DNA from: Cloeon dipterum
Lineage: Eukaryota; Arthropoda; Insecta; Ephemeroptera; Baetidae
Direction of reading: 5' to 3'
Assembly: GCF_949628265.1 (NCBI RefSeq)
Contig: NC_088789.1
Coordinates: 16,980,886-17,044,885 of the forward strand
DNA length: 64,000 nucleotides
Below the pieces are notes generated by a model. The model ran no database searches, was not told the origin of the DNA, and saw only the letters and a list, made by a program, of their open reading frames with translations. Made by a program: the position numbers and the translations under genes. Below, one piece after another: positions 27,709 to 44,600 of this stretch (the first letter of the stretch is position 1; every line of letters begins with the position of its first letter).

Positions 27709-31938
<4,230 letters not shown>

Positions 31939-36097: not shown

Positions 36098-39000
36098 ATG
36101 TGTAAAATGAAGCTGAGGGAGGTTGCATTGGTTCTTTTTCTTCTTGTGCTAATCCAAGGAGGAGTGAGTAGCAAAAAAATGCGCAAAAGTATTATAATAT
36201 AATTTTAAATAATTTTAGAAAGGGAACAATGTGTCAACGGAGGCTAACGCTGATAAATCCATAGAAGGTGAGAGGGATATATTTTATTATAACATTTCCC
36301 CTATGATACCAAGCTACACAATTTACAGGCAAAAATAATGGACCAAAAGCTTTGGATAAATCAAATGATTCTTTGAGCTCAAATCTATCCAGTTCAGATC
36401 CTACTGAAGAAGCCCCTGTGACAACACCAGCAACGAAAAACACATCGCTTGCATCAAAAGTCACTCAACCAGTCTCTACCAGCCAGTGGTCAACTTCTTC
36501 AACAACACTGGGAGTTAGACAGCCAGCAGGTACAGTATCTTACTCCTCAATACATTGATTTTGATGTGATTTTCAATTTTATAGGAGTAACGACAGGAAA
36601 TGAGCAAACTTCGGCCAGTAGCTTTGCTCCTATAAATGGACCCCCGACTACCCAACAAATCAATGCGTCAACATCTGCATTTCCATCAACGATCACTCTA
36701 ACAACAATTGTAATGGGAAGCACGTCAAAACCTAGAGCGGTCATGACAAAGCAAAGTTCTGCTCCTTCAAATGGACCCTTGTCTACCAACAAATCTATTG
36801 TGTCATCAACAACCCCGATTCCATCAACAAGTACTCTAATTACGGCTACAGAAGAAGTCTCTTCAACACTAATTACATCCCAAGATGAAAACTCAAAAAT
36901 TGAGGAAAATACTGCTTCTATCAGATCTGAGAGCCAAACATCAACGGAAAACACTGACAGTAGCGCATCTGGCGCTGGAATTCCCTCCACCGACTCCAGC
37001 AAAGAGCCAGCTTCTCCCGACATCACAGAAACCCGACCAACAAGTAAGATTATTATGTTAAGCCTTCTCTCCATGCACAATACTTCCAAAGAAGCGGTTA
37101 TACTGATTACAGTTTTCCAATGGTTATTTACAGGCACCAAAGAAAACACTAAGTTCAGTACGGCCACAACTGCTGATGAAAAACCGCGAAGCTCTACACT
37201 TTTGACTGAATCCATGACTCCAGGTGAACTTCTACCCTCACCGCAAGCCGTTAATGCAGACGACTTATCTGCAACAACTAACAAGGCGGCCAAATCTGAT
37301 CCAACGACAACTGACAGGACTTCCGCAAGATCCACCCAAAAAAATAATGCAAATGGTAAATAGGGGATTTTTTCATTTTAGCTCCTCTTTCCTTGATGTT
37401 AAAATTCGCTTAAAGCGGTAGAAATCTCTGATGCAACAATTTGTTTATTGTGGCATTATTACCAGCACGCACAACATCAAAAAGTTTGATTGCAAATAGT
37501 TGTGTATTGGGTTGATTCAATTTTTAATTTAATATTTTAGATGCTGCCTCAACTGAGAAGACAAGTACAGTCGGGACCAACAATGGCGAAATAAATGGAA
37601 GTTCTGCCCGACCAGCACAGACCACAGAGAAATCCTCTACAGCAAGCGAAGATGAGACAAGTAACATTATTTAGCACTCCTCCAGTTCCATCAGAATTAT
37701 AGTCTTTATAAGCCAAAATGTTGGTGCCCAATCGTAATTTTGAACTCATTTTGTGTTATTATTGATTAGACGAGCAAATTACCAAGCCGTTGGCTTGCAT
37801 CGTTTATTACGTGATTTGCGTGCACTCGCACTGTGAGAATCCGAGCGATGTTTGGGGGATCGAGTGCGGGCTGACTTGCGCCTAAATTAGATTCTCTTTT
37901 GCATTGCAATGATGATTCCGTTCAATTTGGGAGGGTTACGAAATTGCTGGTTCGCACCTTCCCAGCATACGTGAATTAATTTCATGGGACGAATACAGTA
38001 TCTAGCGTTTCAATAAAAGACCCAATTGCGGGGAAGTCACTGGTCCTTTTCTGGACACTGGGCTTCCTCCAATGAGTCTTGTGCGCCCTGGTTATTCGTT
38101 CGCAATGTTATTGGGACGCGGAGCTTTCGCGAGTTGTTCGCTATCATTTCTCAAGAGATAAACCGATCAAAAAAAATCTGCATACAAATTGTGGTCCCGA
38201 TAAAAGCTACTGTTCTTATGCTATCATTTATTTTAACAGTAAGAATGTTGGATCCACGACCGACTACCAGTGATGGATATGCATCCTCTCTATCCACGAA
38301 TTCAATTGATACAAGTACTGACAACGCTCCAACAACGACAGCCGTTTTCGGAGATAGTAAGATTATTGCTTTGGTCACTTAACCAGTAAAAATTACTGAA
38401 TTTTTTTGACAGCCACTGAAAACAACACAACATGCGTTTCCAAGTTGGTTCAAAACTTGAACACATCTAGTGAAACATGGAAGATTATAGTAAGCTGGGA
38501 ATCACCATGCAAAGGGAAAGAGTACACATTTTCGGTAAAATCTTGGTTTATCAAAATCATCAAATTATTTTTAAGCAACCGAACTACTTAGATCACTAAG
38601 AATGAGACTTGCTTAAATCCTGCTGACCCGCAAACCAAAAATACAAACGAAACGAGCATGATCTTCGACACTGGTTTGAGGGGCGATTGCAATTACACGT
38701 TCAGTGTGGCCGCTCGTCTCTTGAATGATGCGACCAATGATGCAATGATTGTTACATCAGAATCAACGAGTCTAAGAAGTAAAAAACATGGTTATAAAGA
38801 AGCGATTTATTTTCTTTGTCACTGTTCTTTTAGAACATAATGCTGAATTAAAAGTGGAGAAAATAAAAGCAGAATGCAGATGGAATCTTTCATGGATTCC
38901 AGAATCCGAAGAGGTTGCTGACATAGAAATAATATCCATGACCAAGACTAAAAAAATAAACGTAGGTTTCAATGTATATAATGAAACATAATTTCATATC

Positions 39001-42000
39001 ACATGAAATGGATGCTGACAGGCGACTTCTGGAACGGCAACAGTGGAGTACGCAGACCTCCAACTCAAGGAGCGAGCAATTATAAAACTTAGCTTTACCA
39101 ACAACAAGTCAGTAACAATACCTGTCGGTGAATCAGAAATCTATGATAACGGTAAGTACAACATCCTCGCATTACTTATCTTGAATCATTTTTGTGATGT
39201 TTGTTATAAACAGGAACCAGTGCAGTGCGAAATCTCAAATTTAACGATTCAAAAAATTTACTGTCGTGGGAAAAACCAGAAACTATTTGTGGCTCAGTGA
39301 AAAATTACGAAGTATGTATCCAAAGAGTAAGATTAGTATGTATTCTAAAACATTTTTCTAGGTTAAAATCAATGGTAATAAAACCTATAACACCAAAGAA
39401 GGCTCGCTAGAGTTTCGTGTGGATGAGAACGTAATAGAGATCCAGGAAAATGCGACAGCAGTGGTCACACCTCTTGACAGTAGCGACAAAGCTGGCGAGC
39501 CAGCAGAAGTAAATTTTACCAAAAAGGACGACAGTAAGTAGTGAACTGTGGTTTTTATTTTGCGACCAAACTAAAATACCATTAAATCAACAGTTCCGCC
39601 AGAGCCCTCCGATAGTGCTCAAGCAAATATAACTGGATCCGCTGACGCGTCAAAACCGTCAAGACAAGTGGTTATTAGCTGGCCTAAAAATCTCTTTGGA
39701 TCGAAAGAAATTGTTCGATGGGAAGTACTGATACAAAACAGCTCGGTTGCAGACAGCGAAGCTGAGACAGGGGGATATGAAGTTAATGCAAAAAAGCCAC
39801 TCAAATGGATTGAATTTACCCAGGGCCAAAAAGGGTTTTACAGGCCTACAAAAGACGACTGGAAGCCTAAAGAAGAAGGTGTGTGTAAAATAATGCAGAG
39901 GATTTTTGAAATTAAAATATTTGCTACAGGAGGGAAATATTTCCTGGTGGTGGGCACTGAGGAGTGCAATAATGAAAAAGACTACTGCAACGGACTTCTC
40001 AACCCAAACACAAAATACACATACAAAATCAGGGGCTTCAGCAAAATTGGTTTCAGGGACTCACGTGCACTGTCTGTTGAAACAGGAGAGTACACGGGGG
40101 TGGCGAGCCAAATTGTAGTTTCCATTTTGTTCATCGCCATAGCTGGAGTGGTAATGTTTGGATTGTACTACACCAGGAGGAATCATCCAAGATGGTAAAA
40201 AGCATAAATTGTTTAACACGATAATTCACTGAGCAATCTGTCCAGCATACAAAAAGCCATGATATATCTCAGACCCCTGAGACAGTCTCGGGATCCAATT
40301 TTGGAAATGCAAGAAAAGAGACCACTTGTCAGCAAAGCCATTCCGAAGGATGAGTTTTCCAAATACTTGGAAGAGTTGTTGAATATTGATGAAAACGAGG
40401 AGACAAACGAGCTCGCCGAGCAGTTCAAACAACTCGCTCTGCTAAGCCCACCCCCGCCTTCGACGCATCCTGAAAACTATTCGGCGGCGATGATCCAGTA
40501 TAACAAGCACAAAAATCGATACATCAACATTTTGCCATGCAAGACTTGAATTTTCGGCAGAATAAACTGTATTCTAACTGCAACTTATTTTAGATGACAG
40601 CACGCGCGTTGTGCTCAAGCAGATCAGCCCCAATGACCCGGAATCGGACTACATCAACGCATCATACGTGAAAGTAGGACAATTTTAAAATTATAATAAG
40701 CAGATTTTAACTATTTTCAAAATCAAGGGTTTCAGCGGTGAAACGGAGTATATTGCTTGCCAAGGCCCACGTGCCGACACGGCCGAGGATTTTTGGCGGA
40801 TGGTTTTCGAAAAAGACGTCTGCGTAATAGCCATGGTCACCCACTTGGAGGAGAAGGGAAAAGTAAGTGGCTACTGAATAGCACTGTATGACTAGATATT
40901 TTTGTAAAACCACTGCAATTTCCAGGAAAAGTGCCACAAATACTTTCCAGACATGAGAGAGACGATTCGATACGAAATGGTAGCAGTCAAGTGTGTTTTG
41001 CAAGCGGATTTTCCTGTCTTTACCAGAAGAACCTTTTTGGTCCAAGAGACCAACGTAAGTTTTTGTAAATTAATAGCAAAGATCTGTTAATGCCAACCTT
41101 AATCGATAGGGAGTTCTCTTGAAAACCGTGATCCACCTCCACTTCAAAGAGTGGCCTGACTTTGGATGTCCTGAAACGACCGATTTGCTCTTGAATTATA
41201 CCAAAAACGTGAGAGAGGCCGCGAATGAGCATAAGGGAGGGTTAATGCTGGTGCACTGCAGGTGAGTAACGACTTAAACGTAATTAGTTTGATCTAAATA
41301 AAAAGTAATCTCTCTCCCGAAAATTATTTTTTTGACAGATTCAATGCGATAGATAAAAATAAATTTGAATTGTGAGCACGGGTAGCAAGTTAGTTGGAGA
41401 ATATTTTTGATACAATTTGATGGTGGTGCTGCCCTAGTGTGGACCCTGTTGGACACTGTATATGAGGGCACAATATGTTTAAGGCCATCAGAAATTCCAA
41501 ACTGGACTAATTTTAAATGTATCTTGCTCAATTATTATTACTCAATTTCTGAAAGTTTGGAAAGCGCCAAAAATGTCTGGGGATGGTTGAAAATATTTTT
41601 AATTTTGGATAAGAGTCATTTAAATTTGTAATTCCCCGACCTGAGAGAAAATAGAAGATTTTTGCACCTCTAAAAAAAGATTTTTTCAACTTATATTTTT
41701 TACATTATTCTCGAACGATATATTATTATGCATCATTCCCGCTCGAACGGGTGAGCTTTTTATTATTCGCTTTCGTTAAAATTAATTAAACTAGCCTGTT
41801 TCGAGCTAGTAAGATAAAAATTTGTACACTTTTAATGATCATTAAAACTAATTTAAAATCTGCAGTGCTGGGGTTGGCCGCACCGGAACTCTAATAGCGC
41901 TAGACATACTGCTCCAACAGATCAGAGTGAGCACCTCATTCAACATTTTCGACACCATTTTGCAAATGCGATACCACCGAATTAACATGGTGCAAACTGA

Positions 42001-42766
42001 GGTAAGATTAGAGTATGATTGATGAATATTTAAAAAGTTGGAATAATTAAACCACAGGCGCAGTACAAGTTCATTCACGAGTGTGTGCGGGACGCAATCG
42101 AAGAGGAGAAGAAAAATGGTAAAGAATCAAATTGCCAGTAAATTTGGAATTCTGATTCTGGATTTTTTAGGACAATGGTTTGCAATTGGAAATGGCGGAG
42201 CAAACAAACAAGACCCAATCTACCAGAACTTAAACAAAGAAAAATCTGTGAGCATCATAACAGAGATCAATGAAATCGACGACGAGGTGGACTCCGAGAT
42301 CGAGAAAAGCGCAGAGGGGAATTCGACTGAGGGTACACAGGACCAAATTTACCAAAACGTGAACAAAGAAAGGCCCCGTAGCATTAAAATAGAGGTAAAT
42401 GAAGTGAAGGACAAGGTTGCCGTCGGTGTCGATTTTTCGTCTGACTTTGGTCAACAAAAGCCTACTGACATTGATTTAATAAAAAATCATGCTAAAGACG
42501 AGGTGGCCACCGTAATTGAGAAAAGCGCGGAACAGAATTCTCCTGGGGAAAATCAAGATCCAATTTATCTGAACGTGAGTCAAGAAAAGCCTCCTGAAAG
42601 CCAGGAATCTAAGAACGACGGGAGTGGGGAAAAACCCACTCAACCCATCATTCCAGTTTTGCATTTGGCAAATGCTGCAGAAGCAACCAATGAGAATGTA
42701 GAAATGACAGAAGAAATCGTGCCTTTAGTTGAACAGTCAGAAACTCTAGAGGTCACAAAATTGTGA
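36098..42766 (+). CDS. CD45-like receptor tyrosine phosphatase: mucin-like stalk, FN3-like domains, TM, one PTP domain, pYxN tail (~1,421 aa)
   Basis: Twenty-two in-phase exons: 36098-36163, 36219-36267, 36329-36529, 36585-37043, 37134-37355, 37541-37660, 38240-38356, 38413-38534, 38592-38778, 38834-38961, 39022-39151, 39214-39311, 39362-39533, 39594-40194, 40234-40538, 40594-40673, 40728-40862, 40926-41054, 41110-41261, 41866-42001, 42058-42118 and 42171-42766. Residues 1-22 are a signal peptide. Residues ~25-410 are Ser/Thr-rich and mucin-like. Residues ~411-860 hold Cys-containing, N-glycan-rich FN3-like domains. The TM segment is ~864-883 (IVVSILFIAIAGVVMFGLYY). The PTP domain has the KNRYINILPY loop, WPD with Asp ~1124, HCSAGVGRTG with the catalytic Cys ~1157, and the Q-loop Gln (QTEAQYKF), so it should be active. 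The tail repeats QDPIYQNL, QDQIYQNV and QDPIYLNV. One intron is GC-AG. It would dephosphorylate tyrosines at the inner membrane face. Orthology to a named insect R-PTP is not clear. Confidence 0.92.
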
Positions 42767-43153: not shown

Positions 43154-43990
43154 TTAAAGATCCTTTTCTAACAAGTCAGCATAAGCAACATCTAAAAGGT
43201 CAGATTCAGCAATATTCAACTTTGCCATCAAACTTTGAGCGATTTCATTTCCTTCTTCGACAGTTTGATCTTCTCGCAATCCAACCTTCAAAACGTATAC
43301 ATAAAATTAAAATCGTGACCTTAAATCAGCACTTTAAAGTACAAAGAGACCATTAAAACTGTTAGAAAATTTACCTCCAGTTCCATGAAATTTCCCAGGC
43401 CCTTGACCTCGTCAACGTGGATCCTGGTTTGGTCAACCATGAAAAGATGTCTTTTCTTCTGGACAACCAGTCTCTCACCCAAGGAAGCCGCCAAGACGGC
43501 ACGTAGCTCACTTCCGGATGAGCCGACTGAACTCTTTTTGTAGGTGCTTAGCTTGGGTCCTTTGGTGTCCGGTCGGTCGTAATATATCAGCCAAGCTTCT
43601 TTGTTGCCTCCGATTTCCTGAGATATCAAGGAAAATATAATTAATACATATGAACGACCAGTGTAACACACATTATCATAATACATATATCTATTCTATA
43701 TATTTATGTATCTATTATGTATGTATGTACATACATAATTTCTCCCGGCTTTAAGGCTAAATTTCATTTTTTGACTTTCATGGATTGCTGTGTAGTTTAA
43801 TTTTGCACAATAGGGTTAAATTAAACTTGCCTACCTCATCACGAAGTTTTAACCTGCCATTTTTCGATGGGAAAAAGACATCAACTTGATTCAAGATTTC
43901 CTCCGCTTTGCCGCCGCTGACTGATTTTGCACGAGTCAACAGGTCCTCAAGATCGTGAACTCGAGCTTTGATTTCAACATTTCGTTCCAT
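43154..43990 (-). CDS. Small CYTH-domain protein (CyaB/ThTPase-type phosphohydrolase fold, 176 aa)
   Basis: Three minus-strand exons: 43990-43835, 43617-43375 and 43285-43154, all phase 0 and GT-AG, 176 residues. The N-terminus RNVEIKARV corresponds to the family's first strand and its ExExK signature, but with Asn where the first Glu normally stands. Later family-like pieces are FPSKNGRLKLRDE, AWLIYYDRPDTKGPK, KKRHLFMVDQTRIHVDEVKG and LGNFMELEV, alternating charged beta strands of the triphosphate tunnel. CYTH enzymes hydrolyse or cyclise triphosphates (thiamine triphosphate, inorganic triphosphate, ATP) with metal ions. The substrate here cannot be told. It is shorter than human ThTPase (230) and near the length of CyaB proteins. 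Its 5' end is about 0.6 kb from the leader of the UBF-like gene, on the opposite strand. Confidence 0.85.
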
Positions 43991-44600
43991 TTTTAAATGA
44001 CAGCTTAGATGGCTGTTGGAATGCAAAATGTTTAAAAGAAAAAGACTGGGATTTGGTTGAAATGGTAATGATAATTTATAGAATTGGATTTTCCTTTGCA
44101 AAAACCCGCATAGAAATTTTGTTTGTTTGTTTATGTTTTCGTTCGTTCTACGAAGCACCAACATGATAAAGAGAAAATCACCGTAAAAATAAAAGGGTTT
44201 CTCCTCTCTGCGTAAAATTGAGTGCATCATACGCATTAAATTAAAAATAAAAATTTATTTTCTCAATCTTAATTCCCTTGAAAATAAATTTTGGCTTAAC
44301 ATTGCTGCAGAAATAATTTACGTGGTTGGCAAAATTGTCAGTAAAATATTTACCGGTGAAGAAATTACGACCATAACTTAATAATGAATTACTCAATTTC
44401 AGAGTTCAAACGTTTACCCGGATAGCTAGATGAAAAATAAAGACATTCTCTTTAGAAAAGTATTTAAAACTTCTGAAAAACATGAATCACAAACGGAAAC
44501 ACAAAGTAAATTTTTTGCAAGTGCTTTGAAAAAATAACCGGTTAATATAGCGCTACCGATAATTTTAACTTAGTGCGCGGCACGCCGGCAGTGAGAATGT
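43991..44600. promoter_or_regulatory. Possible shared (divergent) promoter region of the CYTH and UBF-like genes
   Basis: About 600 bases separate the CYTH start on the minus strand from the GC-rich start region of the UBF-like leader on the plus strand. No TATA box was recognised. The head-to-head layout suggests a bidirectional promoter, but this is inferred from geometry alone. Confidence 0.35.

Follow-up and report, generated by a model that had tools for sequence, protein, structure and literature searches.

Gene model and domain organisation

The DNA analysed here, referred to as the window, is a 64,000-nucleotide stretch of the Cloeon dipterum genome (RefSeq assembly GCF_949628265.1, contig NC_088789.1, positions 16,980,886 to 17,044,885 of the forward strand; contig C4 below). 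Positions 36098-42766 (+) hold a 22-exon gene model for a receptor-type protein tyrosine phosphatase (PTP). Built by three-frame reading and consensus splice sites, it encodes 1421 residues without internal stops. A sequence-only reading of the locus had proposed a signal peptide, a Ser/Thr-rich stalk, fibronectin type III (FN3)-like domains, one transmembrane (TM) segment, and a PTP domain, in that order, and this layout is borne out by the model (Table 1).

The introns follow the GT-AG rule in 20 of 21 cases, and their phases agree. The sole non-GT donor belongs to a GC-AG intron (40539-40593) just inside the PTP domain, between ILP and Y. Exon 15 has two alternative starts in the same frame, 40246 following a 51-bp intron and 40234 following a 39-bp intron. 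The former is likelier because it implies the longer intron and a better acceptor (CAG) with the frame unchanged, and it shortens the protein to about 1417 residues. Every domain-border junction from exon 2 to exon 14 is in phase 1. That the stalk and PTP exons belong to a single mRNA is deduced from these splice phases, the presence of one signal-peptide-like segment, and the lack of stops. The PTP exons were also recovered by spliced alignment, although the query was the gene model itself and this is not an independent test.

The longest intron of the ectodomain part is intron 6 (579 bp), which separates stalk exons 6 and 7. Its length is partly due to a dispersed repeat sitting inside it. 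Of the 42 matches listed by a search with this repeat, in which 40 of 1041 first-look candidates were scored, one is the window itself and two are short fragments, and the remaining 39 show 69-81% identity.

Table 1. Parts of the gene model and the repeat within it, in window coordinates
Feature	Position	Strand	Basis
Exon 1: start codon and signal peptide, residues 1-22	36098..36163	+	ATG, hydrophobic core, GTGAGT donor
Exon 2, residues 23-38	36219..36267	+	Gene model
Exons 3-7: mucin-like stalk	36329-36529, 36585-37043, 37134-37355, 37541-37660, 38240-38356	+	Composition and phases
Dispersed repeat in intron 6	37781..38177	.	Nucleotide matches in genome
Exons 8-9: FN3-like domain 1, residues 412-514, 4 Cys	38413..38778	+	PF00041, pattern 1:0:1
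Exons 10-11: putative FN3-like domain 2	38834..39151	+	Position and intron pattern 1:0:1 only
Exons 12-13: putative FN3-like domain 3	39214..39533	+	Weak PF00041, pattern 1:0:1
Exon 14: TM segment preceded by the long R3-type juxtamembrane domain (PTP_tm)	39594..40194	+	Starts in phase 1, ends in phase 2
Exons 15-21: cytoplasmic linker and single PTP domain	40246..42118	+	PTP motifs; alternative start 40234
Exon 22: C-terminal tail, three YxN motifs, stop codon	42171..42766	+	Gene model and repeats

The ectodomain

The signal peptide has a hydrophobic core averaging 1.84 on the Kyte-Doolittle scale over 19 residues. It is followed by a stalk of 389 residues (23-411) that contains 36.5% Ser and Thr, 7% Pro, and no Cys. 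The Ser and Thr content stays at 34-42% in 100-residue segments from residue 51 to 400. The window has 63 stop-to-stop frames that reach 100 residues or more; the one carrying stalk exons 4-5 is the richest in Ser and Thr (31% over 313 residues), with the next at 26%. This composition suggests that the stalk would be O-glycosylated, and it has no match in Pfam. Stalk exons 3-7 together make up 373 codons and all run from phase 1 to phase 1, therefore each could be skipped in frame. The well-studied Drosophila receptor phosphatases are not known to carry such a mucin stalk.

Four putative FN3-like domains come next (residues 412-862), and together they contain 9 Cys and 16 N-glycosylation sequons. 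Domain 1 narrowly passes the Pfam fn3 threshold (PF00041, 25.2 bits against a cut-off of 25.0) and is the only one of the first three to do so. Domain 3 scores 17.3 bits, below the cut-off, and domain 2 has no Pfam fn3 match. Comparison of residues 412-859 with PDB sequences returned just two chance-level matches (E 0.55 and 0.86). In the genome searches, which covered 190 Mb in 10 contigs, residues 516-850 matched only the gene itself at E up to 0.01, besides matches reaching in from the TM and PTP side. FN3-like domain 1 likewise matched only its own gene at E up to 1.

The fourth FN3-like unit is the juxtamembrane domain of exon 14, which is followed by the one TM segment (hydrophobic windows at residues 856 to 885). 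The exon 14 domain matches PF18861 (PTP_tm), described as the TM-proximal domain of PTPRJ, at 32.8-33.0 bits when scored alone and 27.9 bits in the whole protein (cut-off 26.3). A long juxtamembrane FN3 domain is a character of R3 receptor phosphatases (PMC5336234, PMC3676743). At E up to 10, PF18861 is found at two places in the genome, the window gene and a Ptp10D-like gene, where it scores 25.1 bits and falls below the cut-off. Aligned over 43 residues, these two domains share 40% identity (E 7e-8).

The phosphatase domain

Only one PTP domain is present (residues 981-1213; PF00102, 252.8 bits), followed by a tail and a stop codon, which upholds the earlier remark that the protein differs from CD45 in this respect. 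Its catalytic motifs are intact (KNRY, WPDFG, HCSAGVGRTGT, and QTEAQY), including WPD and HCX5R, and the domain is predicted to be an active phosphatase. Among single-domain PDB chains PTPRB scores best (227.3 bits), ahead of 3i36 (206.8 bits), which is a near-copy of PTPRJ by sequence comparison, and a PTPRD chain (203.5 bits). Identity to the window domain is 45.6% for PTPRB, 42.1% for PTPRJ, 41.1% for the first domain (D1) of CD45, and 40.0% for the Ptp10D-like domain.

For phylogenetic analysis, 46 spliced PTP placements were obtained from 38 overlapping loci, one of which gave none; these form part of 164 PTP matches in the genome. Besides the window domain, the 40 rows of the main tree comprise 29 genome placements and 10 reference domains. 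It omits duplicate or incomplete views of a domain, three near-duplicate cluster members, two degenerate domains at C1:27.3 Mb, and the second domain at each of two loci. A reduced tree of 26 rows was made by dropping six second (D2) domains and eight divergent rows. In the 40-row tree the window domain and two paralogues from this genome group firmly as one clade (100/100). The union of this trio with R3 is not firm.

Related phosphatase genes in the genome

The two paralogues lie at C2:26733000-26740500 (L050) and C3:12333000-12342700 (L056/L062), and their PTP domains are 46.4 and 48.4% identical to that of the window gene, respectively. Both have a single PTP domain in which WPD is replaced by WTS and WSD, so that they are perhaps weak or inactive phosphatases. 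Read by frame rather than linked by splicing, the regions upstream of both contain Ig-like segments, with Ig_2/Ig_3 just below the cut-off, and no mucin stalk was seen there. By eye, the first Ig segments resemble fasciclin 3. Neither paralogue has a YxN between the PTP domain and the first stop, with a further spliced exon possible. Exons of 135 and 136 bases occupy matching places in the window gene and both paralogues, as they also do in the C4 receptors.

The mucin stalk and tail of the window gene thus do not seem to be common to its nearest catalytic kin. Either the PTP module has been combined with different ectodomains, or the lineage has swapped its ectodomain. The possibility raised earlier, that the PTP domain nests in an established insect class with the stalk present throughout, finds no support in these two relatives.

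The Ptp10D-like gene lies on C2 at about 19.856-19.859 Mb. Its best PDB match is Drosophila 10D (485.1 bits), followed by a two-domain chain at 444.6 bits, and it is likely the orthologue of Drosophila Ptp10D. It shares with the window gene the R3-type juxtamembrane domain and a PTP domain with WPD and P-loop. It differs in sequence within that PTP domain and has no YxN in the ~20 residues read after it, further exons not having been read. Drosophila 10D itself has a long FN3 ectodomain. No YxN is reported for it in the published R3 survey (PMC5336234).

Receptor phosphatase clusters were also observed on C4 at about 0.60, 1.01-1.17, 2.54, 18.96, and 29.2-30.1 Mb (L040-L047, L049). By eye, some of these genes have EGF-like repeats and FN3-like segments before the TM segment, and a second, divergent PTP domain. 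The eight C4 cluster domains used in the trees form one clade (100/98; 99/97 in the reduced tree). To our knowledge such an expansion is unusual for an arthropod.

The C-terminal tail

The tail comprises 199 residues and all three of its tyrosines lie in YxN motifs within diverged tandem repeats: IYQNL (Y1241), IYQNV (Y1284), and IYLNV (Y1356), in the numbering of the 1421-residue model. These repeats are absent from the sequence-only reading. Two short hand-aligned repeat pairs of 27 and 31 codons give proportions of nonsynonymous differences (pN) of 0.20 and 0.20 against synonymous proportions (pS) of 0.73 and 0.61, with synonymous sites near saturation. As pN is far under pS, the tail is very likely coding and constrained. 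A genome search with the tail (E up to 0.01) brought up no second one like it, and Pfam returned just two chance-level matches (E 1 and 2.3).

Phosphorylated YxN is the consensus recognised by the SH2 domain of Grb2 and its counterpart Drk. Mammalian R3 receptors are reportedly phosphorylated at YxN, which is said to favour binding of Src-family kinases (PMC5336234, PMC3676743). A YxN tail is predicted in vertebrate PTPRJ, PTPRH, PTPRO, and PTPRB, and none is predicted in PTPRQ or the fly receptors (PMC5336234). For PTPRA, PMC7959691 cites binding of Grb2 to a tyrosine of the tail once this is phosphorylated.

A probable R3-like receptor phosphatase

We lean, with moderate confidence, towards the view that the gene encodes an R3-like single-domain receptor phosphatase, of the group of PTPRJ, PTPRB, and Ptp10D, which is distinct from the Ptp10D-like gene and whose CD45-like mucin rod arose by convergence. 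The R3 characters found are the fn3 match (in one of three domains), the PTP_tm domain, one cytoplasmic PTP domain that carries WPD and HCX5R, and the YxN tail. PTPRJ and PTPRB share the combination of FN3 domains, juxtamembrane domain, single PTP domain, and YxN tail (PMC5336234), and PTPRB gives the best single-domain PDB score. The window protein differs from both in its long Cys-free mucin-like stalk, its few FN3 domains, its three YxN repeats, and the position of its PTP domain outside their clade. The N-terminus of PTPRJ is likewise rich in Ser and Thr, though short.

Several results weigh against this assignment. PTPRB, PTPRJ, and two 10D sequences form a clade (98/98) that leaves the window domain outside, and in the best trees the trio joins R3 at 72/0 and, in the reduced tree, 76/93.8, which is not firm. 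Placing the window domain in R3 without its paralogues is borderline (approximately unbiased (AU) test, p 0.053). A domain of another class in the same genome (C5:27.05 Mb) is 42.9% identical to that of the window gene, as close as PTPRJ. FN3 domains 2 and 3 are supported mostly by intron phase, and single-sequence structure prediction of exon 14 gives a mean predicted local distance difference test (pLDDT) score of 36.7. The shortness of the tail comparison counts here too, and the stalk and tail are known here from one species.

A bolder and distinctly more tentative reading is that the trio represents an undescribed arthropod phosphatase class, in which one PTP lineage carries different ectodomains. 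One member would have mucin and FN3 parts with an R3 juxtamembrane domain, and two would have Ig-like parts with an altered WPD loop. The first would have independently evolved a splice-adjustable CD45 plan along with a triple Grb2/Drk-docking tail that CD45 lacks.

The main rival to the R3-like reading favoured above, though an unlikely one, is that the gene is an orthologue of fly Ptp52F, a fast-evolving receptor whose range would then extend beyond flies. By its published description, Ptp52F combines the long juxtamembrane FN3 domain with one PTP domain that lies no nearer to R3 than to the remaining classes (PMC5336234), and the window protein fits this description. However, Ptp52F-like sequences are reported only in flies, and no YxN is predicted for Ptp52F, in the same survey (PMC5336234). 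The likeness is one of description.

Kinship with CD45 itself fares worse. The CD45 ectodomain consists of a mucin-like region, a Cys-containing first domain, and FN3 domains (PMC10815196), and the window protein likewise has a mucin-like N-terminus, a Cys-containing domain, FN3-like domains, and one TM segment. Where CD45 has a Cys-rich domain and three FN3 domains, the window protein has the 4-Cys domain 1 among four FN3-like units, with putative folds. CD45 differs in its two tandem PTP domains, compared with the one PTP domain, R3-type juxtamembrane domain, and YxN tail found here. The claim that the order of domains is the one that defines CD45 holds for the ectodomain only. R3 characters make up the rest, namely the domain next to the membrane, the lone PTP domain, and the tail.

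It is highly improbable that the gene is an arthropod CD45 (R1), or a member of an R1/R4 lineage, that has lost its second PTP domain. The same ectodomain order would suit such an origin, and the five stalk exons, any of which could be skipped without a frame shift, are reminiscent of the variable exons of CD45. Constraining the trio together with CD45 D1 was not rejected (AU p 0.108; 0.106 in the reduced tree), although this grouping is absent from the best trees, and adding PTPRA D1 to the constraint was not rejected either (p 0.274). Conversely, the window domain constrained with CD45 D1 alone was rejected (AU p 8.8e-5). CD45 D1 instead pairs with PTPRA D1 in the 40-row tree (94/91, just short of the starred level), a pairing that the reduced tree does not resolve. 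Such kinship is also at odds with the presence of just one PTP domain and of a juxtamembrane domain and tail of R3 type. Of the two origins first offered for the CD45 likeness, convergent or ancient, convergence is the better option on these grounds, with the unrejected union of the trio and CD45 as a counterpoint, and the likeness is probably convergent.

Least credible is a joining artefact, in which a mucin gene is followed by a separate receptor phosphatase gene: the repeat-bearing intron 6 would offer a place for the join, but there is one signal-peptide-like segment, the domain borders keep phase 1 with no in-frame stop, and the Ser/Thr-rich run goes on in exon 7, beyond the long intron.

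A possible mode of action

If the gene encodes an R3-like receptor as favoured above, a short FN3 part of about four domains would have been lengthened by the mucin-like stalk into a CD45-like ectodomain. The glycosylated rod may then keep the phosphatase out of tight cell contacts or offer it to lectin-like ligands. Size exclusion has been described for CD45 and for the R3 member CD148, as has a lectin-ligand role for CD45 (PMC10815196). Where there is room for the rod, the enzyme would dephosphorylate its substrates, which may be receptor kinases or Src-family kinases. Restraint of EGFR by R3 receptors is described in flies and worms (PMC4259406). Once phosphorylated, the YxN tyrosines of the tail could dock the SH2 domains of Drk/Grb2 or of Src-family kinases, holding the enzyme in receptor complexes.

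Neighbouring features

Two other features of the window were recognised by eye. Exons at 27846-31475 (+) resemble the helicase XPD/ERCC2, and 43781-44254 (-) holds the start of a protein resembling a CYTH-domain (thiamine-triphosphatase-like) enzyme.

Possible significance for the R3 family

In the R3 survey, protostomes have one R3 type besides fly Ptp52F, and the annelid is the only protostome that retains a YxN tail (PMC5336234). The arthropods in the tree of that survey are flies (PMC5336234). A second R3 type in another arthropod, if confirmed, would therefore widen this picture rather than overturning it. A literature search found neither a mucin-stalk R3 receptor nor a CD45-like one described in insects, which does not prove their absence, as most subscription journals and genome annotations lay outside its coverage. 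If the stalk is expressed and spliced, the gene would represent an invertebrate version of size exclusion in the manner of CD45, on the basis of another phosphatase lineage. The role of ectodomain size and glycosylation, rather than of lineage, in phosphatase segregation would then become testable outside vertebrates.

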